DNA of 44,295 nucleotides, taken from NCBI GenBank assembly GCA_007134055.1, contig SLLM01000247.1:1-44295 (forward strand). Reading direction: 5' to 3'. The notes beneath the pieces were generated by a model. It saw nothing but the letters and a program-made list of their open reading frames with translations. It was not told the origin of the DNA and did no database searches. Both the position numbers and the translations under genes were made by a program. This DNA is from Ectothiorhodospiraceae bacterium. GTDB taxonomy: Bacteria; Pseudomonadota; Gammaproteobacteria; Nitrococcales; Aquisalimonadaceae. This document shows positions 11,674-36,094 of this stretch, piece by piece; position 1 is the stretch's first letter; each line of letters begins with the position of its first letter.

Positions 11674-11940
11674 ATGCTGGATGTGGAGTTCTACGGCGTA
11701 CTGCGTCAGGTGGCCGGTGGCAGGTCGGTGCAGCTGGAGGGTGTGGAAGGTGGCGAGACGGTGGACCAGGTACTCGCCCGCCTGCGTCAGGAGCTGCCTG
11801 CCCTCGAGCCGCACCTGTCCAGACTGGCATGCGCCCAGGGAGATCGCCTGATACGCCGCGATCAGGTGATCGACCTGCAGCAGCCCCTGGTCCTGTTGCC
11901 GCCGGTCAGCGGCGGATCCGGCGGGCCCGACACGGTTTGA
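11674..11940 (+). CDS. moaD: Molybdopterin synthase sulfur carrier subunit MoaD, with C-terminal extension past Gly-Gly
   Basis: MLDVEFYGVLRQVAGGRSVQLEGVEGGETVDQVLARLRQELP...VLLPPVSGGSGGPDTV; immediately upstream of moaE. Confidence 0.88.
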   Translation: MLDVEFYGVLRQVAGGRSVQLEGVEGGETVDQVLARLRQELPALEPHLSRLACAQGDRLIRRDQVIDLQQPLVLLPPVSGGSGGPDTV

Positions 11941-11950
11941 GGAGATCAGC

Positions 11951-12397
11951 ATGAGTCACATGACCGAGCAGCCTCTGGACCTGGACGCCCTGATCCGTGA
12001 GACCGAGAACGAGACCTGCGGCGCCATGGTCGTGTTCTCCGGTATCGTCCGCAACCATCACGACGGGCGCGGGGTGACGGGCATGGACTACTCCGCCTAC
12101 GGCCCAATGGCCGACCGGGTCCTGGAAGAACTGGAAGCGGAGACCATCGAACGGTTCGGCGTGCAGGAATGCCGCATCATGCATCGTACGGGCAGGCTGG
12201 AGGTGGGGGAATCCAGCGTGCTGGTGGTCGTGCGTTCCCATCACCGGGGCGACGCCTTCGAGGCCGCCCGTTACGCCATCGATACCCTCAAGGTGCGGTT
12301 GCCCGTTTGGAAGGAGGATTTCTACACCGACGGCAGCGCTGCCTATCAGGATGGCGTCGCATTGCAGGCAAGGGATACCGGGGAGCGGGAACCATGA
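11951..12397 (+). CDS. moaE: Molybdopterin synthase catalytic subunit MoaE
   Basis: GAMVVFSGIVRNHHDGRGVTGMDYSAYGPMADRVLEEL...HRTGRLEVGESSVLVVVRSHHRGDAFEAARYAIDTLKVRLPVWKEDFYTDG. Confidence 0.95.
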   Translation: MSHMTEQPLDLDALIRETENETCGAMVVFSGIVRNHHDGRGVTGMDYSAYGPMADRVLEELEAETIERFGVQECRIMHRTGRLEVGESSVLVVVRSHHRGDAFEAARYAIDTLKVRLPVWKEDFYTDGSAAYQDGVALQARDTGEREP

Positions 12398-21262: not shown

Positions 21263-22009
21263 TCAGCGCGAGATGACTTCGACCAGGTGTCCACGCCGGC
21301 GATTACTGAGCAATACCACCCGATCGTAACGGCTCCCCCCGTCCAGGAGGGCTGCGGCGATCTCCCGCGCCGCGCGTTGCAGGGGGGCGTCGTCCACCAT
21401 GTTGAGTACCGGTACCAGTGGGCCGTCGCCGGTATTGGCGGAGAGTCCGCCGGGCCGCAGGTACAGGGCGGCGACGAGTGCCGGGGTCACGGGTTCGCCC
21501 AGCGGATGCCCCGTGACCTCGCTGATACGTTCCGGGCGGTGAGCGATGCGTTCGTCCAGGGGGCGGCCGAGAGCAAGTACGGAGCTGATGGCGAGCACGG
21601 TGCTGCCGGTGATCACCTTCGGTTCCTGTACGCCCGGAGCCTTGATGCGCCGCATGCGGGCGCCGTCCGCTTTGACGAGTGTGAGTTCGAAGGCGCCGTC
21701 CCGGTGCATGGCGGTAATGTCCCCGCCGTGCAGCGGGCCGATCCGCCGCGGCTTGTCCGTCGGCACGGCGTACGCGACCCGGGAAGCCGGGTCGGTGGGA
21801 ACCTGTTGCCGGAGGACAGCCAGCTCCGCCAGGTGGATGCTGGCGTTCAGCGTGTCGGGAAAAGGGGGCGTGAAGACGCTGGCCGTGAGACCGGTACGCA
21901 CCTGCGAGTGCTCCAGCAGCGCGAAAAGTGTCGTCTTCTTGCCGCCGGCGCCGATGGCGCAGACGATGCCCCGTTCCGCGCCCAGTGCCTGGTGCAGGCT
22001 GCTACTCAT
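21263..22009 (-). CDS. yqeC: YqeC-family putative Mo-hydroxylase accessory protein
   Basis: P-loop IVCAIGAGGKKTTLFALLEH...VKADGARMRRIKAPGVQEPKVITGSTVLAISSVLALGRPLDERIAHRPE. Confidence 0.75.
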   Translation of the reverse strand: MSSSLHQALGAERGIVCAIGAGGKKTTLFALLEHSQVRTGLTASVFTPPFPDTLNASIHLAELAVLRQQVPTDPASRVAYAVPTDKPRRIGPLHGGDITAMHRDGAFELTLVKADGARMRRIKAPGVQEPKVITGSTVLAISSVLALGRPLDERIAHRPERISEVTGHPLGEPVTPALVAALYLRPGGLSANTGDGPLVPVLNMVDDAPLQRAAREIAAALLDGGSRYDRVVLLSNRRRGHLVEVISR

Positions 22010-23193
22010 CCTGCACCCGTGCCACCGGTTGCCGTGTGGGCCTCGCCGGAGGGAAGGGACCGAAACGCCGTATCCACTTCGGCCACCTGGACGCTGAGGA
22101 TACGGGGCAGGAACTCGGCGATGCAGCGCCAGCTCTCGCCCCCGTCCCGGCTGGCGAATACGTGGCCGCTGGACGTGCCGAAATATGCGCCGGCGACCGG
22201 CGTATGGTGATCCAGTGCCAGACCCTCGCGCAGTACCGACACGTAGGCGTGCTGCTGCGGCAGCCCGTCCGCGAGGGCCGTCCAGCGGCGCCCGCCGTCC
22301 CGGGAGCGGTAGACCCGCAGGCGGCCGCCGGGAGCCGTACGCAGGTGGTTGCTGGCAATGGGAATGACCCAGACCGAGTCCGGGTTGTCCGTCTCGCTGG
22401 CCAGGGCGTAGCCAAAGTCGCTTGGCAGGCCCTCGGTGATCTCGTGCCAGCTGGCGCCGCCGTCGTCGCTGCGGTAGACGCCGTTATAGCACTGGCGGTA
22501 GAGGCGGTCGGGATCGGCCGGGTGCGCGACCAGCCGGTGCACGTTGTGGCCGCTGACGGCATAGCGCTGCGGGAGGTTTTCGGCTCGCACTCCACGGTTG
22601 ATCGGTTGCCAGTGTTCCCCGCGGTCGTCGCTACGATACACCCCGCCGGCGGAGACCGCAGCGTAGAGGCGATCCGGCTGCCGGGGACACTGATGGACGG
22701 AGTGTACGGAGAAACCACCCTTCGCCGGCTCCCACGTGTCGCGGGATGGGTGCATGTTCAGGCCGTCGACGGGGATCCAGCTCAGGCCCGCATCACGGCT
22801 GACAAACAGCCCTGCCGGATCGATTCCCGCATACAGAGTGTCAGGTTCTTCCGCAAGGCCGGGAGCCAGGTACCAGATGGCTCGCAGGGCCTCCGGAAAG
22901 CGCCCGGGCGGGTGTGCGGGCAGCGAGTCCAGTGGTGTCCAGGTGGCCCCTGCATCCAGGCTGCGGTATACGTGGGCGCCCCAGATCGTGTGGGTCACGG
23001 CAGCATAGGCCCGCTGCGGTTGTCGGGGATCGTTCCAGGCGTGTAGCACCTCGTAACCGGCGATCAGCGGCCCCTGGATGTGCCAGTGGCTGTCCTCCCC
23101 GGTCGCCACCAGCCGGAAAAGCCCCTTCTGCGTTCCCACCAGGAGTATGGTGGCCGGACTGCCTGTGGTGTGGGGAGGGCGGCTGTCGTTCAT
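22006..23193 (-). CDS. WD40/YVTN/BNR-repeat sialidase-like propeller protein
   Basis: Repeated BNR Asp-box motifs: SLDAGATWTPL, SRDAGLSWIPV, SDDRGEHWQPI, SDDGGASWHEI, SRDGGRRWTAL, SRDGGESWRCI; ATGA overlap with yqeC. Confidence 0.88.
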   Translation of the reverse strand: MNDSRPPHTTGSPATILLVGTQKGLFRLVATGEDSHWHIQGPLIAGYEVLHAWNDPRQPQRAYAAVTHTIWGAHVYRSLDAGATWTPLDSLPAHPPGRFPEALRAIWYLAPGLAEEPDTLYAGIDPAGLFVSRDAGLSWIPVDGLNMHPSRDTWEPAKGGFSVHSVHQCPRQPDRLYAAVSAGGVYRSDDRGEHWQPINRGVRAENLPQRYAVSGHNVHRLVAHPADPDRLYRQCYNGVYRSDDGGASWHEITEGLPSDFGYALASETDNPDSVWVIPIASNHLRTAPGGRLRVYRSRDGGRRWTALADGLPQQHAYVSVLREGLALDHHTPVAGAYFGTSSGHVFASRDGGESWRCIAEFLPRILSVQVAEVDTAFRSLPSGEAHTATGGTGAG

Positions 23194-23296: not shown

Positions 23297-23710
23297 ATGA
23301 GGACTGTGGTACTGCCCGCCCATGTCCGTCGGGAGCTGGAAAGCCTTGCGGTAGCGGCCTATCCCGAAGAGGGTTGCGGCGTACTCCTGGGCAAGCCCAC
23401 GCCGCAGGGGCCGTCGGTCGTCCGGGTTCTGGCCTGTGGCAACGTGGCGGAGGATCGGCGGCGTGCGTACCTGCTTGAACCGCTTGAGTACCTGGCGGCG
23501 GAACGCGCCGCCAGCTCCTGCGACCTGGAGGTTGTGGGGATCTGGCACAGTCACCCGGATGGAGCGCCAGTGCCGTCGGAGACGGACCGCGTCCAGGCCT
23601 GGGGTGGCTGGAGTTACGTCATTGCTGCCACCTCCCAGGCCGGGGTCACCGGCCTGCGGGCGTGGCGCCTGCGGCAGGACGTGTTCACCGAGGAGGACAT
23701 CCACCCTTGA
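23297..23710 (+). CDS. JAB1/MPN (JAMM) metallopeptidase, Mec-like
   Basis: YPEEGCGVLLGK and GIWHSHPDGAPVPSETD: catalytic Glu plus exact HxH-x7-S-x2-D motif. Confidence 0.93.
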   Translation: MRTVVLPAHVRRELESLAVAAYPEEGCGVLLGKPTPQGPSVVRVLACGNVAEDRRRAYLLEPLEYLAAERAASSCDLEVVGIWHSHPDGAPVPSETDRVQAWGGWSYVIAATSQAGVTGLRAWRLRQDVFTEEDIHP

Positions 23711-25155
23711 AACTGGTAACCGTACGCATTCCCACGCCGCTGCGCCCCTTTGCCGACGGCTGCAGCGAGATCGAGGCCCGCGGCGAGACCGTCGGGGACG
23801 TGCTTCTGCAGCTGCACCACAAGCACACGGGACTGGGCCAGCGGATCCTCACGCCGGAAGGTGCGGTGCGCCGTTACGTCAACGTCTTTGTCGGCGAAAC
23901 CAGTATCAGTCAGCTGCACGGGATGGATACCGTTCTCGACGACGGTGATACGGTGTCCATCCTCCCGGCGGTGGCGGGGGGCGGCGGTCGCGCCAGGGAT
24001 CAGCGACTGGAGGCACTGCGCTCGAGCGTGCGGGAGGTCGAGCCGGCGGAAGCGGCTCGCATGCAGTCCGAGGGCGGGGTGCTGATCGATGTACGCGAGC
24101 AGGATGAGATCGCCGCCGGCAGCCCCCGGGATGCCGTTCGCCTGGGTCGTGGTTACCTGGAACTGCGGATCGAGGACGCCGTCCCGGACCTGGACACGCC
24201 GTTACTTACCCTGTGCGGCGGTGGTACCCGCTCGCTGTTCGCCGCCGAGGACCTGCAGCGGATGGGCTACCGCAATGTTGTCTCGGTGGCCGGTGGGTTC
24301 AACCGGTGGAAGAACGAAGGTCTGCCATTCGAACTCCCCCGCACGCTGAACGCCGCGGCACGGGAGCGATACTCCCGGCACCTGCTCATGCCGGAGGTCG
24401 GGGAGTCGGGGCAGATGCGGCTCATGGATGCCCGGGTGCTGCTGATCGGTGCCGGGGGGCTGGGGTCACCGGTGGCATTGTATCTGGCGGCGGCCGGGGT
24501 CGGCACCATCGGCGTGGTGGATCATGACGTCGTCGACCGGAGCAACCTGCAGCGGCAGGTCATTCACGCCGAGGACCGGGTGGGCATGTCAAAGGTGGAG
24601 TCCGCCCGGGCAGGCATACAGGCCCTGAACCCGGACGTGGATGTCCGCATGCACGATCGGCATCTGACCAGCGACAACGTGGATGAACTCTTTCCCCAGT
24701 ACGATCTGGTCGTGGATGGTGCGGACAATTTCCCCACGCGGTACCTGGTCAATGACGCCTGCGTCAAGCACGGTCTGCCGAACGTGCACGGGGCGGTGTT
24801 CCGCTTCGAGGGACAGGTGACCGTTTTCTGGCCGGGACGGAAGGGAGCGCCGGGACCGTGCTACCGCTGCCTCTACCCGGAACCGCCGCCGCCGGAGTTG
24901 GCGCCTTCCTGCGCCGAGGCGGGTGTGCTGGGCGTGCTTCCGGGAGTGATCGGACTCATGCAGGCGATCGAGGCGGTGAAACTGATCCTCGAGGTCGGCG
25001 AGCCGTTGGTGGGCCGTTTGCTCTACTACGATGCGCTGAGTGCCACATTCACCGAGCTGCGCATGGAACGGGATCCGCACTGCGCCTACTGTGGCGACGG
25101 CGCAGCCTTCCCGGGCTACGTCGACTACCAGGGGTTCTGTGCCGCGTCCGGCTGA
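23707..25155 (+). CDS. CysO/MoaD-like ubiquitin fold - rhodanese - MoeB/E1-like adenylyltransferase fusion
   Basis: LKLVTVRIPTPLRPFADGC...DGDTVSILPAVAGGGGRARD; LIDVREQDE...LLTLCGGGTRS; RYSRHLLMPEVGESGQMRLMDARVLLIGAGGLGSP...DRSNLQRQVIH...VDGADNFPTRY...CYRC...CAYC. TTG start at 23707 overlaps the JAMM stop. Confidence 0.92.
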   Translation: MKLVTVRIPTPLRPFADGCSEIEARGETVGDVLLQLHHKHTGLGQRILTPEGAVRRYVNVFVGETSISQLHGMDTVLDDGDTVSILPAVAGGGGRARDQRLEALRSSVREVEPAEAARMQSEGGVLIDVREQDEIAAGSPRDAVRLGRGYLELRIEDAVPDLDTPLLTLCGGGTRSLFAAEDLQRMGYRNVVSVAGGFNRWKNEGLPFELPRTLNAAARERYSRHLLMPEVGESGQMRLMDARVLLIGAGGLGSPVALYLAAAGVGTIGVVDHDVVDRSNLQRQVIHAEDRVGMSKVESARAGIQALNPDVDVRMHDRHLTSDNVDELFPQYDLVVDGADNFPTRYLVNDACVKHGLPNVHGAVFRFEGQVTVFWPGRKGAPGPCYRCLYPEPPPPELAPSCAEAGVLGVLPGVIGLMQAIEAVKLILEVGEPLVGRLLYYDALSATFTELRMERDPHCAYCGDGAAFPGYVDYQGFCAASG

Positions 25156-25168
25156 GCCGGTTCGCGGA

Positions 25169-26437
25169 TCAGCCGAACATGCCGTGCAGCGGCTGCACCT
25201 CGACGTACTCGCCCGCGGCGACGGGGCCACTGTCGTGGGGGAGTACGATGAAGCAGTTGGCGGCCGTCACCGAACTGAGGATACCGGAGCCCTGGTTGCC
25301 GGTGCTGCTCACCACCAGCTCCCCTCGTTCGTCCCGCTGCAGCCGGCCACGCTGGAACTCCGTTCGCCCCGGGCGCTTGCGCAAGCGCCCGGCGGTGCGC
25401 ACGCGGAAGGTGAGGGGCCGGGAGATCTCCTCTCCCATCAGGTGACACAGTGCCGGCCGCACGAACTGGTACCAGGTAGCCACCACCGAGACCGGGTTGC
25501 CCGGCAGGCCGAAGAACCACGCGCCACCGAGGTTGCCGAAAGCCAGTGGCCGGCCGGGCCGCATGGCGATCTTCCAGAAGTTTACCTCGCCGAGCTCGTC
25601 GAGGATCTGCTTGATATAGTCCGCCTCGCCCACGGAGACACCACCGGACGTGACAATGGCGTCGGCGAAACCGGCAGCGGCGCCGAATGCCTCCTCCAGC
25701 GCCTCCGGGGTGTCGCTCACCACCCCCATATCGGTTGCCTCCACCCCGAGGGCCGCCAGGGCGGCGTAGAGCGTGTAGCGGTTGCTGTCGTAGATCTCCC
25801 CGGGAGCCAGCGGTTCCCCGGCGCCCCGCAGCTCGTCACCGGTGGAGAAGAACGCCACCCGCAGTCGCCGGAATACCGGGACCTCCACCAGGCCCATGGA
25901 GCCCAGCACACCCAGTTCCGCGACGCCGATCCGCTGTCCTCTGGCGAGGACGCGCTGCCCCCTGGCCAGGTCTTCACCGGCCTGGCGCACGTTCTGCCCG
26001 GGTTGCTGGCCCGATGCCACCGAGACCTGATCCCCTTCGACCGTGGTCCGCTCCTGCATGACGACGGTGTCGGCACCGTCAGGAATGGGGGCCCCGGTGG
26101 TAATGCGTATGCAACTACCGGGGGTCACCATGCCGTGGAACGGATGCCCGGCGAGTGCCTTGCCCCGCAGGGACAGAACGGCGGCGCCACTGGCGTCCAG
26201 GTCCGCGCCGCGCAGGGCGTAGCCGTCCATCGCCGCGTTGGTGTTCGCGGGAACGTCGACCTGCGAGTGGATGTCCTCGGCGAGCGTGCGATTGAGCGCG
26301 TGGCGGGTTGCCACGCGCTCAATCGTGGTGATCGGCTCAATGTCCGCCCGGATTCGTTCCCAGGCAGCGTCAATGGACAGTGAAACGGGGTCGGAATCAT
26401 CCTGGCAACTGGGGTCCGGGTGGTCGTGTCCGGTCAT
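25169..26437 (-). CDS. moeA: Molybdopterin molybdenumtransferase MoeA
   Basis: PANTNAAMDGYALRGADLDA...CIRITTGAPIPDGADTVVMQE...STGDELRGAGEPLAPGEIYDSNRYTLYAAL...TSGGVSVGEADYI...GLPGNPVSVVATW. Confidence 0.95.
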   Translation of the reverse strand: MTGHDHPDPSCQDDSDPVSLSIDAAWERIRADIEPITTIERVATRHALNRTLAEDIHSQVDVPANTNAAMDGYALRGADLDASGAAVLSLRGKALAGHPFHGMVTPGSCIRITTGAPIPDGADTVVMQERTTVEGDQVSVASGQQPGQNVRQAGEDLARGQRVLARGQRIGVAELGVLGSMGLVEVPVFRRLRVAFFSTGDELRGAGEPLAPGEIYDSNRYTLYAALAALGVEATDMGVVSDTPEALEEAFGAAAGFADAIVTSGGVSVGEADYIKQILDELGEVNFWKIAMRPGRPLAFGNLGGAWFFGLPGNPVSVVATWYQFVRPALCHLMGEEISRPLTFRVRTAGRLRKRPGRTEFQRGRLQRDERGELVVSSTGNQGSGILSSVTAANCFIVLPHDSGPVAAGEYVEVQPLHGMFG

Positions 26438-26694
26438 GCATGGCCTCGTCTGTTCAGTCCGGGTTGGCGTCCGGTGGCTGTAGCGGCAGCTGGCCTGTTG
26501 GCATATGGAGCGATCAGTATGAAGGAGGAAGCAGGGGATGCGGAAGGTCTCGCCATGCGAACGCTGATGTTGCTGGCGGACATGCGACGTGCGGCAGCGG
26601 TCCACAACGACCGCCGATCCGCTCCCGGAGCAGGGGGGAGGAGCCCTGGGGAGGCCGCCGATTCAGACCTCGACGGTAGCGATCCGGGCATCGG

Positions 26695-27654
26695 TCAATG
26701 TGCGGTCCACATGATCCGTCCAAGTTCCGTGAAATCGTAGCCACCAAGGCTCTCTGCCGCGGTCTGGGTTCGCCGGGTACGCAGTTCGTCGAGCAGCTGC
26801 TGAAACAGCCGCCGGAAATACACACCCCGGTAGAGGGCCAGGTCGAACGCTTCCCAGCCGACGGGCACGAAGGCGAGGCCTGCCTCGGTCGCGTTGCCGT
26901 GGCTGCCGGGGGCCACGTCTGCCTGTCCCATCGCCAGGGCCGCCGCCGCGTCGCGGCCGGACAGCGCGGTGTAGACGGAGCGCTCCATGATGCTGGCCAT
27001 GGTGACCTGCTGCGCCGCCAGCGCTTCCTGGAGAAAGCGCTGGCAGCCGGAACCCTCCTGGCGCATCGCCCAGCGCAGGGGGGCCGAGACCAGGCGTGGC
27101 AACTCGTCCTGGTGCTCCCGCCGTACCATCAGACCCTGCTGACGGTGAAAGGCGCGTACCAGCACCCAGTCGCGGTGCTGGGGGTAGCGGCTGAGCAGTG
27201 CGGTATGCCGATGCCGGCTTTCCGTTACCGGTCCCCAGTGAACGGCGCAGATATCGGCCCGGTGCCTTGCCAGAAGGCCCAGTCCCAGGCCGGCGCCGGT
27301 AGGCGTGTAGCTCACCAGCGCCTGGGCGCGGATGTCGTGGGCGAGCTGCATGATCACCCGGTGGAGCAGCGGGTCATCGCTGCCGGCAAGGGCGAGGCGG
27401 TCGGTCAGCACACCGCCGTAGCTGGATTCCAGCAGCCAGCGGTCGACCAGGTCCCGGGGGAACATCCACTTGCCGGTTACCTTCGTTGCCGGAATGTTGC
27501 CCTCGCTGACCAGGGCGTAGACCTTCTTTTCGTTGAGGTGCAGGTAATCGGCGACCTGGCGAACATTCATGAAACGTGGTGCGGGCTTGTCCCCCGGGGC
27601 AGCAAGGGCGCTGGACCCGTTGCCCGATATCGGCCGCGCGCCGGGTGCATCCAT
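26695..27654 (-). CDS. Excisionase-type HTH plus periplasmic-binding-protein-like domain regulator
   Basis: FMNVRQVADYLHLNEKKVYALVSEGNIPATKVTGKWMFPRDLVDRWL then PBP-like domain ...WALVRAFHRQQGLMVRRE-type region, GQADVAPGSHGNATEAGLAFVPVGWEAFDLAL; ATG at 27654 or GTG at 27687. Confidence 0.8.
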   Translation of the reverse strand: MDAPGARPISGNGSSALAAPGDKPAPRFMNVRQVADYLHLNEKKVYALVSEGNIPATKVTGKWMFPRDLVDRWLLESSYGGVLTDRLALAGSDDPLLHRVIMQLAHDIRAQALVSYTPTGAGLGLGLLARHRADICAVHWGPVTESRHRHTALLSRYPQHRDWVLVRAFHRQQGLMVRREHQDELPRLVSAPLRWAMRQEGSGCQRFLQEALAAQQVTMASIMERSVYTALSGRDAAAALAMGQADVAPGSHGNATEAGLAFVPVGWEAFDLALYRGVYFRRLFQQLLDELRTRRTQTAAESLGGYDFTELGRIMWTAH

Positions 27655-27693
27655 GGTCCTGGCCTCCCTGACTGTCGCGGCAGGCACCTCGTG

Positions 27694-28701
27694 TCAGCCG
27701 CCAGTCACGCTCATGTGGCGAAAGATCACCGGTTTCACGTCAATGTTGAAATCGTGCCCCCGGGGTTTGATCTCCATGGAGTTCACGATTGTCTCGCGGA
27801 GACGCTCCATGTCGCCGGGGTGACTGCGCATCACGCGCTTGAGGTCCATCGAGTGTTCCTGCCCCAGGCATAGCAGCAGCTGGCCTTCCGTGGTTACCCG
27901 GACGCGATTGCAGCTCTCGCAGAAGTTGTGGCTGTGGGGCGAGATGAACCCGACCTTGCTGCCGGAGTCCGCGATCCGGAAATAGCGCGAAGGTCCGCCC
28001 GTGGTCTCCGTGGTGGGCAGCAGCCGGTAGCGGGTTTCGATCCGTTCCCGGACCTCGTCGGAGGACATGTAGGATTCGGCCCGGTCATGCTCGATCTCGC
28101 CCAGTGGCATTTCCTCGATGAAACTGATGTCCATGTTCCGTCGGCGGACAAAATCAACCAGGTCGAGTATCTCGTCGTCGTTGCGGTTGTGCATGGCCAC
28201 GGTGTTGATCTTGATCCGCTCGAAGCCGGCGGCGAGCGCGGCGTCGATGCCCCGCAGCACCTTGTCGAGTTCCCCGACCCGGGTAATGCGCCGGAACCGC
28301 TCCGGATCGAGGCTGTCCAGGCTGATATTGATACGGCGCACGCCGGCATCCCGCAGCGGCCGTGCCAGTTTCTGCAGCTGCGAACCGTTGGTGGTCAGCG
28401 TCAGTTCCTCGAGTTCCGGGAGCCGGCCCAGCTCCCGGAACAGCCAGATCACGTTCTTCCGCACCAGCGGTTCGCCGCCGGTAATCCGGATCCGCGTCAC
28501 TCCGAGTTCGGTGAATGCACGCCCCAGGGTGGCCATTTCCTCCAGCGTTAACAGCTGGGCGCGCGGGAGGAACGTCATGTCCTCGCTCATGCAGTAGACG
28601 CAGCGGAAATCACAACGATCGGTGACGGACATGCGGACGTAGGTAACATGCCGACCGAACCGATCCACGAGTTTCGGGGTGTCCGGCTGATTGGTGTGCA
28701 T
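27694..28701 (-). CDS. moaA: GTP 3',8-cyclase MoaA
   Basis: [37 protein letters not shown]...[12 protein letters not shown]...[21 protein letters not shown]...MSVTGG. Confidence 0.96.
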
Positions 28702-33214: not shown

Positions 33215-36094
33215 ATGAAACTGATGAAGAAGAGTGCTGCGGCGTCTGGTATCTCGGCGCCCGGCCTGCTGGGGAAGGCGATCGGCCGACGCACCTTCCT
33301 GCAGGGCTCCGGCCTTGCGGTTGGCGGGGCCGTGGTCGCGGGCTCGCTGCCGCTGACCATGGTCAGGAAGGCGAAGGCCGCGCCGCGCGTTGCGCCGGAC
33401 TCGGAGATTCAGCGGGTCAAGACTATCTGTGGCCACTGCTCCGTAGGATGCAGCACCATAGCCGAGGTTCACAACGGGATTTGGATCGGGCAGGAGCCCG
33501 CTTTCGACAGCCCCATCAACCTGGGGGCGCATTGCGCCAAGGGTGCGGCACTGAGGAACCACGGCCACAGCCAGCGGCGTATCAAGTACCCCATGAAACT
33601 GGTGGACGGTCGCTGGCAGCGGATCAGCTGGGAACAGGCCATCGACGAGATCGGCGACAAGCTCCTGGAGATCCGCGAAGAGTCCGGGCCGGACTCCTTG
33701 TGGTTCGCCGGTTCGTCCAAGGCGAACAACGAGGGTGCCTACCTGCAACGCAAGTTCGCTGCCTTCTGGGGGTCGAACAACTGCGACCACCAGGCGCGCA
33801 TCTGCCACTCCACTACGGTGGCCGGTGTGGCGAATACCTGGGGGTACGGCGCCCAGACCAACTCCTACAATGACATCAACAAGTCCGAGTGCATCGTGAT
33901 GTGCGGCTCCAACGCCGCCGAAGCGCACCCCGTGGCCATGCAGATGATCCTGCGCTCGAAGGAGAACGGGGCCAAGCTGATCGTCATGGATCCACGCTTC
34001 ACCCGTACCGCGGCGCATGCCGACACCTATGTCCGCTTCCGCTCCGGTACCGACGTGCCGTTGCTCTGGGGCATCCTCTGGCATGTCTTCGAGAACGGCT
34101 GGGAAGATACCGAGTACCTGCGACAGCGGGTGTTCGGCATGGACCGGGTACGTGAAGAGGTCGCCAAGTGGACCCCGGACGAGGTCGAGCGGGTCACCGG
34201 TGTCGGTGAGGAAGCCCTCTACGATGTGGCCCGGACCATGGCGGAGAACCGCCCCGGCACGTTCGTGTGGTGCATGGGCGGCACCCAGCACACCATCGGC
34301 AGCAACTATGTCCGGGCCTACAACTGCCTGCAGCTGGCGCTCGGCAATATCGGTGTCGAGGGTGGTGGTGCCAACATCTTCCGCGGACATGACAACGTTC
34401 AGGGTGCCACGGATATCGGCCCGAATCCGGACAACCTGCCGGGTTACTACCCGATCTCGGAAGCCGGCTGGCAGCACTGGTGCCGGGTCTGGGACGTGGA
34501 CTACGAGTGGCTGGAGCAGCGCTTTGACCAGGCCGAGTACGACGACGGTCGCGGCGGCACCGTGAAGAACATGAATGCCGGCGGCATCACCGTCTCCCGC
34601 TGGATCGACGGGGTGCTGGAGGACAGTGACAACATCGCCCAGAGGGACAACATCCGGGCGGCCATCTTCTGGGGCCATGCGCCCAACTCCCAGTCCCGGG
34701 GTCCCGAAATGAAACGGGCCTTCGAGATGCTGGACCTGCTGGTGATTGCCGATCCGTATCCCACCGTGAGCGCGGTGCTGCATGACCGGAAGAACAACAC
34801 CTACCTTCTTCCCGCGGCCACGCAGTACGAGCAGGCGGGTTCGGTGACCGCCTCCAACCGCTCCATCCAGTGGCGGGAGAAAGTGATCGACCCGCTTTAC
34901 GAGCACAAGAGCGACGGCGAGATCGCCTACCGGCTCGCCAGCAAGCTCGGCTTCGCCGACCAGATGTTCAAGCACATCGAGGTGCGGGACAACGTGCCGG
35001 TTCCGGAGAGTATCCTCCGCGAAGTCAATCGGGGTGCGTGGTCCATCGGCTACACGGGGCAGAGTCCGGAGCGGCTCAAGGAGCACATGGCCAACCAGCG
35101 TCATTTCGACGTGGTGAGCCTGAAGGCGGAGGGCGGTCCGCTGGATGGCGAGACCTACTGCCTGCCCTGGCCCTGCTACGGCACTCCGGAGCTGAAGCAT
35201 CCCGGCACCCACGTTCTCTATGACACCAGCAAGCACGTCATGGAGGGTGGTGGTAACTTCCGCGCCAACTTCGGCACGGAGTACGAAGGCGAGAACCTCC
35301 TGGCGGAGGATTCGTACCCGGTCGGGGCGGAAATCCAGGGCGGCCATCCACAGTTCGACTCCGAGCTTCTCAAGCAGCTTGGCTGGTGGGATGAGCTGAC
35401 GGACGAGGAGAAGGAAATGGCCGAAGGCCGGGCCTGGACCACCGACCTCTCCGGCGGCATCATCCGGGTCGCCATGAAGCACGGCAACCACCCGTTCGGC
35501 AACGCGAAGGCGCGTGCCTACGTGTGGAACTTCCCGGATCCGGTCCCCGTGCACCGTGAACCGCTCTACACGCCGCGCTACGACCTGGTCGAGGACTACC
35601 CGACCTACGAGGACCGCGCCGTGTTCTACCGGCTACCCACCCGCTGGGAGTCGGTGCAGGCCCGGGACTACAGTCGTGAGTTCCCGCTCATTCATACCTC
35701 CGGCCGACTGGTCGAGTATGAAGGCGGCGGCGAGGAAACCCGCTCCAACCCCTGGCTGGCCGAGCTCAAGCAGGACATGTTCGTCGAGATCAATCCTGCG
35801 GATGCCAACGACGCCGGCGTGCGGGACGGCCAGACGGTCTGGCTGGAAGGCCCCGAAGGCGGCCGGATACGCATCAAGGCCCTGGTCACGAATCGCGTCG
35901 GTCGCGGAACAGTATTCACGCCGTTCCACTTCGGCGGCCACTTCCAGGGCGAGGACCTGCTCAGCAAGTATCCGGACGGCGCAGCCCCCTACGTGCGTGG
36001 TGAGTCCACCAACACCGCGACCACGTACGGCTATGACGCGGTAACGATGATGCAGGAAACCAAGACCACGCTCTGTCGGGTCATCCCCGCCTGA
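33215..36094 (+). CDS. fdhA: Formate dehydrogenase catalytic (alpha) subunit, cysteine form
   Basis: Tat motif RRTFLQ; 4Fe-4S ligands CGHCSVGCSTIAEV; NNCDHQARICHSTTVAGVANTWGYGAQTNSYNDI; the position in the active-site CHS motif is TGC (Cys). Confidence 0.95.
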   Translation: MKLMKKSAAASGISAPGLLGKAIGRRTFLQGSGLAVGGAVVAGSLPLTMVRKAKAAPRVAPDSEIQRVKTICGHCSVGCSTIAEVHNGIWIGQEPAFDSPINLGAHCAKGAALRNHGHSQRRIKYPMKLVDGRWQRISWEQAIDEIGDKLLEIREESGPDSLWFAGSSKANNEGAYLQRKFAAFWGSNNCDHQARICHSTTVAGVANTWGYGAQTNSYNDINKSECIVMCGSNAAEAHPVAMQMILRSKENGAKLIVMDPRFTRTAAHADTYVRFRSGTDVPLLWGILWHVFENGWEDTEYLRQRVFGMDRVREEVAKWTPDEVERVTGVGEEALYDVARTMAENRPGTFVWCMGGTQHTIGSNYVRAYNCLQLALGNIGVEGGGANIFRGHDNVQGATDIGPNPDNLPGYYPISEAGWQHWCRVWDVDYEWLEQRFDQAEYDDGRGGTVKNMNAGGITVSRWIDGVLEDSDNIAQRDNIRAAIFWGHAPNSQSRGPEMKRAFEMLDLLVIADPYPTVSAVLHDRKNNTYLLPAATQYEQAGSVTASNRSIQWREKVIDPLYEHKSDGEIAYRLASKLGFADQMFKHIEVRDNVPVPESILREVNRGAWSIGYTGQSPERLKEHMANQRHFDVVSLKAEGGPLDGETYCLPWPCYGTPELKHPGTHVLYDTSKHVMEGGGNFRANFGTEYEGENLLAEDSYPVGAEIQGGHPQFDSELLKQLGWWDELTDEEKEMAEGRAWTTDLSGGIIRVAMKHGNHPFGNAKARAYVWNFPDPVPVHREPLYTPRYDLVEDYPTYEDRAVFYRLPTRWESVQARDYSREFPLIHTSGRLVEYEGGGEETRSNPWLAELKQDMFVEINPADANDAGVRDGQTVWLEGPEGGRIRIKALVTNRVGRGTVFTPFHFGGHFQGEDLLSKYPDGAAPYVRGESTNTATTYGYDAVTMMQETKTTLCRVIPA

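Follow-up and report, generated by a model that had tools for sequence, protein, structure and literature searches.

How can a sulfur carrier be activated if the diglycine on which activation depends lies in the middle of a longer polypeptide? In MoeB/ThiF/MoeZ chemistry, adenylation requires a free C-terminal glycine. The question is raised by two adjoining genes in the window—the whole 44,295-nucleotide stretch of DNA analysed here (Ectothiorhodospiraceae bacterium, assembly GCA_007134055.1, contig SLLM01000247.1)—which encode a JAMM peptidase and a single chain joining a CysO-like carrier, a rhodanese and a MoeB-type E1 enzyme. Since the reaction depends on a carboxylate that is free at the C-terminus, the internal diglycine of such a chain must somehow be exposed. 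In the following, we describe the two proteins, their distribution and their genomic setting, and we weigh the ways in which they could work together.

Architecture of the JAMM gene and of the carrier–rhodanese–E1 fusion

The first gene (23297..23710, forward strand) starts with ATG at 23297, stops with TGA at 23708-23710 and encodes a JAMM/Prok-JAB metallopeptidase of 137 amino acids, matching Pfam PF14464 at 4e-23 and PDB entry 2kcq at 5e-20. Sequence reading places the catalytic motif, WHSHPDGAPVPSETD, at 23543..23587 (forward strand); the glutamate and the HSHP and S-x2-D zinc/catalytic motif of Prok-JAB proteins are all present, and Glu25, His84, His86, Ser94 and Asp97 were invariant among the 17 homologues aligned. 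Against the haloarchaeal desampylase model NF041370 the protein scored 87 bits, under the cut-off of 130. Both reading frames and their overlap are as originally described, with the TTG start of the second gene at 23707 sharing four nucleotides (TTGA) with the JAMM stop. Homologues back this TTG as the start of the fusion, and direct reading revealed a likely ribosome-binding site, GAGGAGG (23690..23696, forward strand), within the 3' end of the JAMM gene—a G-rich stretch with counterparts in many homologues.

The second gene (23707..25155, forward strand), delimited from the open reading frame, hmmscan and homologue starts, encodes 482 amino acids, in which hmmscan resolved ThiS (residues 6-92), rhodanese (113-204) and ThiF (222-459) domains. 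The carrier domain (23722..23982, forward strand; PF02597, 3e-10) combines the beta-grasp and diglycine of ThiS/MoaD/CysO carriers and ends in PAVAGG (residues 87-92, with the diglycine at 23977-23982), so that its diglycine is internal rather than terminal. Its end had been likened to that of mycobacterial CysO, and a PDB match agrees: M. tuberculosis CysO (3dwg) aligns with residues 4-92 at 1e-16. The same domain reached 54 bits against the SAMP1 model NF041918, slightly under the cut-off of 60. Conservation of the diglycine had been chosen beforehand as a point on which the original prediction could fail; the two glycines proved invariant in every carrier aligned, and VAGG was invariant in the 18 carriers aligned. 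In the rhodanese domain (24043..24318, forward strand; PF00581, 1e-12), the active-site Cys170 lies in LCGGGTRS (residues 169-176) and is conserved in all fused homologues. The E1 domain (24370..25083, forward strand; PF00899, 4e-82) has the adenylation fold, nucleotide loop, arginine motif (RSNLQRQ, 278-284) and paired zinc CxxC motifs (CYRC, 385-388; CAYC, 459-462) of the MoeB/ThiF type. All the motifs named in the original prediction were recovered, although the nucleotide loop reads GAGGLGSP and not GIGAGGLGSP. Taken together, rhodanese and E1 (residues 97-480) match NF006444, i.e., PRK08762, with 625 bits against a cut-off of 449.

The AlphaFold2 model of the fusion had a mean pLDDT of 86.6 and a pTM of 0.66, a value at which the relative placement of the domains is unreliable. 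Two segments fell below a pLDDT of 50, namely residues 395-406 within the E1 domain and residues 89-93, VAGGG (23971..23985, forward strand), at the predicted JAMM cut. Since VAGGG is the sole inter-domain segment with such a low score, the diglycine appears to lie in a flexible linker. Foldseek identified MoeB-MoaD (1jw9) as the best match, with MoeB-MoaD, ThiF-ThiS and Uba4 as top hits.

Distribution of fused, tailed and free carriers

Our survey covered 76 related genomes, a class-wide sample of 369 genomes and a scan of species genomes. Among the 76, the fused arrangement was found in the window's genome (G000; 88% complete) and in G001, G004, G005, G007, G009, G010, G011, G012, G015, G022 and G064. 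In the class sample it occurred in 5 of the 369 genomes, with some 30 others encoding a rhodanese-MoeB protein that lacked the carrier domain, and the species-genome scan added named loci, Aquisalimonas MAGs among them. Places met twice (L157-L160 and L164, identical to G015, G011, G013, G005 and G009) were each counted once. The survey yielded 19 distinct loci encoding the carrier-rhodanese-E1 chain, and a JAMM gene adjoined the chain in 19 of 19—a coupling of fusion and JAMM that goes beyond chance. With this number of distinct fused loci, an assembly or sequencing error joining two genes could be ruled out. A programmed frameshift at the G-run encoding the diglycine, considered as an alternative to plain fusion, seems unlikely, given that every homologue encodes the fused chain in a single reading frame. 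A quick tree of the fusions required five state changes for the fused form and may be compatible with a single origin. One locus, L166, is labelled Nitrospira, yet groups with gammaproteobacterial sequences in this tree and may be a binning error.

Within the window's family, the carrier is encountered in several forms: fused; with nine residues after the diglycine (G002, G013); with 38 residues after it (G003); or ending exactly at the diglycine (G006, G008). All split forms end at, or carry, the same diglycine as the fused form. Farther afield, a Phycisphaeraceae MAG (L229:3472-4938) encodes a different fusion, carrier-MoeB, with a JAMM gene upstream. At five other loci (L186, L188, L191, L192 and L197), four of them with a JAMM gene, carriers with an internal diglycine continue into an additional ~80 residues at the C-terminus, which by eye resemble a NIL-like domain.

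Association of masked diglycines with the JAMM gene

The relationship between carrier form and JAMM presence was assessed for loci containing a rhodanese-MoeB or a close BNR protein. A JAMM gene adjoined the carrier in 29 of 29 loci with a masked diglycine (19 fused and 10 tailed) and in four of nine with a terminal one (Fisher 2.5e-4, calculated without phylogenetic correction on loci that are not phylogenetically independent). The G017 carrier stops at the diglycine, and a separate rhodanese-E1 gene follows directly; this genome (91% complete) yielded no JAMM of the module's type, only a weak match in a 231-residue frame. The four JAMM genes kept beside terminal diglycines are those of L048, L049, L150 and L154, the first two being the loci of G008 and G006, both of which have a tailed MoaD. 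A JAMM beside an already terminal diglycine implies that the peptidase does more than unmask the carrier. Outside the rhodanese-MoeB/BNR context, 19 of 54 short-tailed carriers were without a JAMM gene in the loci fetched; hence, the rule linking masked diglycines to JAMM is not universal.

A tailed MoaD and the E1 complement

A candidate second substrate for the JAMM peptidase, missed by the original prediction, lies 12 kb upstream of the module. Here, an 88-residue MoaD (11674..11940, forward strand; PF02597 match at 11683-11916) ends in LLPPVSGG-SGGPDTV—that is, with a seven-residue tail, SGGPDTV, after VSGG—and is followed by a MoaE domain, the large subunit of molybdopterin synthase (11960..12295, forward strand; PF02391, 2e-38). 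In ten genomes of three genera (G000, G001, G002, G003, G005, G006, G008, G009, G011 and G013), MoaD carries a tail of 5-9 residues; no two of these tails are alike, and the module's JAMM gene is present in all ten genomes. MoaD ends at the diglycine in G004, G007, G010, G015, G017, G064, G075, G022 and G074; in G017, a JAMM of the module's type is absent. Such tails are no general habit of these genomes, since their ThiS, where found, ends at the diglycine—the exception being G075, with two extra residues. MoaD requires a free terminal glycine (PMC4326299), so a processing peptidase must exist if the tailed MoaD is functional, and the JAMM peptidase encoded in the cluster would, we infer, be the obvious choice. 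Alternatively, the tails could be tolerated or be removed by another protease; the protease acting on mycobacterial MoaX is unidentified (PMC4326299). In the genomes of genus g4 and in G015, fusion and JAMM are present and MoaD is untailed, so the peptidase needs a substrate beyond MoaD there.

ThiF-domain searches returned the fusion as the only MoeB/ThiF-type E1 in the window's genome. In G001, they returned the fusion and a distant ThiF-like frame of 628 residues. Because the window's genome is 88% complete, the case for a single E1 rests mainly on G001, which holds MoaD, MoaE and a ThiS beside frames reading as ThiG and ThiC. By analogy with mycobacteria, where MoeZR serves MoaD and CysO alike (PMC3227635), the fused E1 probably serves MoaD, the carrier and, in G001, ThiS in the window's genus. 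Most other fused genomes keep a separate MoeB-like protein too, and genomes with a free carrier have a stand-alone MoeB-like protein and no rhodanese-E1 fusion. Two further observations concern G001: the 628-residue protein is adjoined by another JAMM (G001:C6:264809-266028), the pair possibly being an anti-phage E1/JAMM system, and a MoaD-like match (L302, G001:C6, 36848-37084) shares its region with a frame resembling aldehyde ferredoxin oxidoreductase.

Genomic neighbourhood

The original prediction also missed the setting of the module among genes for molybdenum cofactor (Moco) and formate dehydrogenase. Divergent from the JAMM gene lies a conserved neighbour encoding a BNR/Asp-box repeat protein (22006..23193, reverse strand; PF02012 and synteny), followed by a second one for a YqeC-family protein (21263..22009, reverse strand; TIGR03172, 105 bits against a cut-off of 73). 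On the other side are MoeA (25169..26605, reverse strand; NF007960, 560 bits), a regulator with HTH and periplasmic-binding-like domains (26695..27687, reverse strand; PF12727, PF12728), MoaA (27694..28701, reverse strand; TIGR02666, 376 bits) and, in the same cluster, the catalytic subunit of an FdhA-type formate dehydrogenase (33215..36094, forward strand), assigned by conserved synteny and a TIGR01591 match of 1e-139 that stays under the curated cut-off. Apart from some losses of the regulator or moaA, the order mobA, TPR, yqeC, BNR, JAMM, fusion, moeA, HTH regulator, moaA and formate dehydrogenase is conserved in the family. Linkage to MobA, MoeA and MoaA thus holds for the window's family, but not for all fused relatives.

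BNR and YqeC proteins are the most constant partners of the module in the window's family, and Woeseiaceae-like MAGs show the order BNR-yqeC-carrier-moaA without a JAMM gene. Since BNR proteins recur beside carriers, including where JAMM is missing, they are candidate acceptors or partners. A second carrier family, ending in LSGG, pairs with BNR paralogues without JAMM in G000, G072, G074 and G075, and such a carrier with its BNR protein forms a recurrent two-gene unit (L301, i.e., G000:C216; L303; L304; L305). A selenium cofactor, as might be read from YqeC, found no support as a general link: SelD exceeded its cut-off only in G002, G003, G008 and G009 among 18 genomes.

Of 20 module or near-relative genomes searched for FdhD (PF02634), 18 yielded no match, the window's included; it was detected in G017, which has a split carrier and lacks JAMM, and in G008. 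In the class sample, FdhD accompanies this formate dehydrogenase in 39 of 47 genomes, and all three genomes with a close BNR orthologue belong to the eight without FdhD (p 0.003, confounded by descent). These data hint, weakly, that the released carrier takes over from FdhD and supplies sulfur to the Moco of the formate dehydrogenase next door, an idea we consider doubtful. Five genomes without FdhD are also without a BNR orthologue, and in four genomes with parts of the module (G064, G216, G081 and G413), a formate dehydrogenase of this type was not found.

Proposed mechanism and alternative explanations

Drawing on the domains, catalytic residues, invariant diglycine, synteny, E1 census and distribution of tails and JAMM genes, we infer the cleavage, its site, MoaD as a substrate and an acceptor as follows. 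The fusion would unite a pro-carrier with the enzyme that activates it. A JAMM cut after VAGG (after residue 92) would release the carrier, CysO-like and now ending in its diglycine, and leave a rhodanese-MoeB enzyme, the E1 domain of which would adenylate the carrier's terminal glycine; Cys170 of the rhodanese would then hand over persulfide sulfur to yield the carrier thiocarboxylate. The same peptidase would trim the tailed MoaD to VSGG for loading by the same E1, which in G001 would also load ThiS. In this way, the module would provide a maturation and sulfur-loading step of Moco biosynthesis, and the freed carrier would donate to a sulfur acceptor probably tied to the Moco/formate-dehydrogenase/BNR/YqeC cluster. 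As a whole, the reading that JAMM exposes both diglycines and that the E1-rhodanese thiocarboxylates them for Moco maturation is, judged from sequence evidence, one we hold to be likely, with real room for doubt. The original prediction had left two options for the internal diglycine; release by JAMM is the most likely, and action in cis without cleavage is unlikely on chemical grounds, since the uncut carrier offers no free C-terminal carboxylate for adenylation.

The fused carrier might nevertheless never be cut and instead serve the E1 as a domain for docking or regulation, which would leave MoaD or carrier adducts as the sole substrates of JAMM. The MoaD tails would indeed offer the peptidase another substrate, and the fused protein is sequence-stable across many genomes. 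We still regard this explanation as unlikely, given that PAVAGG is kept in every fused carrier down to its terminal glycines, which only a functional C-terminus needs, that the same diglycine ends the split carriers, and that the g4 genomes and G015 retain fusion and JAMM with an untailed MoaD. It is very improbable that molybdopterin synthase uses the fused carrier in place of MoaD for its small subunit: the module does sit in a Moco cluster, but a separate MoaD is encoded beside MoaE here and in most module genomes, and we rejected a replacement MoaD on these grounds.

Cysteine synthesis of the CysO/Mec/CysM type deserves more weight, without being the expected answer. Here, the carrier would be thiocarboxylated, a distant CysM-like synthase would form carrier-Cys, and JAMM would free the cysteine as Mec+ does, with processing of the fusion as a second job of the same peptidase. 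This fits the match to M. tuberculosis CysO, the persistence of JAMM beside carriers already ending in the diglycine, and the CysM/CysK-family gene that comes immediately after the fusion in G064, G216, G114 and L166 and after the split module in eight other loci—matches that stay below cut-off in the curated CysM and CysK models. The original view of a two-gene, condensed sulfur-transfer module of the CysO/Mec/MoeZ type is supported; the downstream synthase in fused relatives makes the CysO link real for part of the family, and in relatives with such a neighbour the module plausibly is a CysO-type cysteine pathway. In the window's family, however, the cluster is one of Moco and formate dehydrogenase genes, and no CysM-like gene occurs in its fetched loci (mostly 12-20 kb); nor is a linked synthase present in the window, as the original prediction had noted. 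A ubiquitin-like role, with lysines as targets for conjugation of the carrier and JAMM taking it off again as in archaeal sampylation, seems improbable. The likeness of JAMM to desampylase (NF041370) and of the carrier to SAMP1 (NF041918), both below cut-off, speaks for it; the surroundings belong to sulfur and Moco metabolism, and no E2-like gene is among the window's annotations. The preferred reading—release of the carrier and trimming of MoaD by one peptidase—lends itself to direct tests of processing, as a single family includes versions of the same carrier that are fused, tailed or free.

Relation to known systems

The module shares a CysO-like carrier, a JAMM peptidase and a MoeB-rhodanese with the CysO/Mec+/MoeZ/CysM system of Mycobacterium tuberculosis, and in some relatives a cysteine synthase adjoins it. 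Here, however, the carrier is fused ahead of the E1, the rhodanese precedes the E1 rather than trailing it, and the window's copy stands in a Moco cluster without a cysteine synthase. The QbsE/QbsD/QbsC and HcyS/HcyD systems, in which a JAMM peptidase removes a short tail after the diglycine of a sulfur carrier, differ in belonging to siderophore or methionine pathways and in being encoded by separate genes. Residues 97-480 are shared with the PRK08762 rhodanese-MoeB proteins (NF006444), most of which lack a carrier domain in the class scan. Comparable operons are on record in gammaproteobacteria, namely Alkalilimnicola ehrlichei and a species abbreviated 'Noce', which we take to be Nitrosococcus oceani. 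Both are listed by Iyer et al. (2006) in row 4b, which comprises three-gene ThiS/MoaD + E1-rhodanese + JAB operons, and the same authors already suggested release of a fused carrier by JAB as a possibility (PMC1779556). The text of that article, figures aside, has no mention of a carrier-rhodanese-E1 chain, and it describes JAB proteins as absent from Moco pathways (PMC1779556), whereas the JAMM gene studied here stands in a Moco cluster.

Parallels for the cleavage come from fusions of a carrier to its acceptor enzyme: HvJAMM1 cleaves SAMP1-MoaE (PMC4443979), DR0402 cleaves MoaD-MoaE (PMC8832034) and MoaX is cut after Gly82 (PMC4326299). In each, a JAMM peptidase—or, for MoaX, the unidentified protease—cuts after an internal diglycine to yield a working carrier; there, the carrier is fused to MoaE, whereas here it is fused to the activating E1-rhodanese and MoaD is only short-tailed. 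The components, the operon, the idea of release by JAB and the demonstrated JAMM cleavage of carrier-MoaE fusions are hence already known. In the part of the literature covered, figures aside, neither the fusion of a carrier with its own E1-rhodanese nor a short-tailed MoaD turned up in any paper. Should the preferred reading hold, a JAMM peptidase would act inside Moco biosynthesis as a MoaD maturase, contrary to the 2006 statement, and a ubiquitin-like carrier would be encoded with its own activating enzyme in one chain and be released by proteolysis, much like ubiquitin from its precursors.
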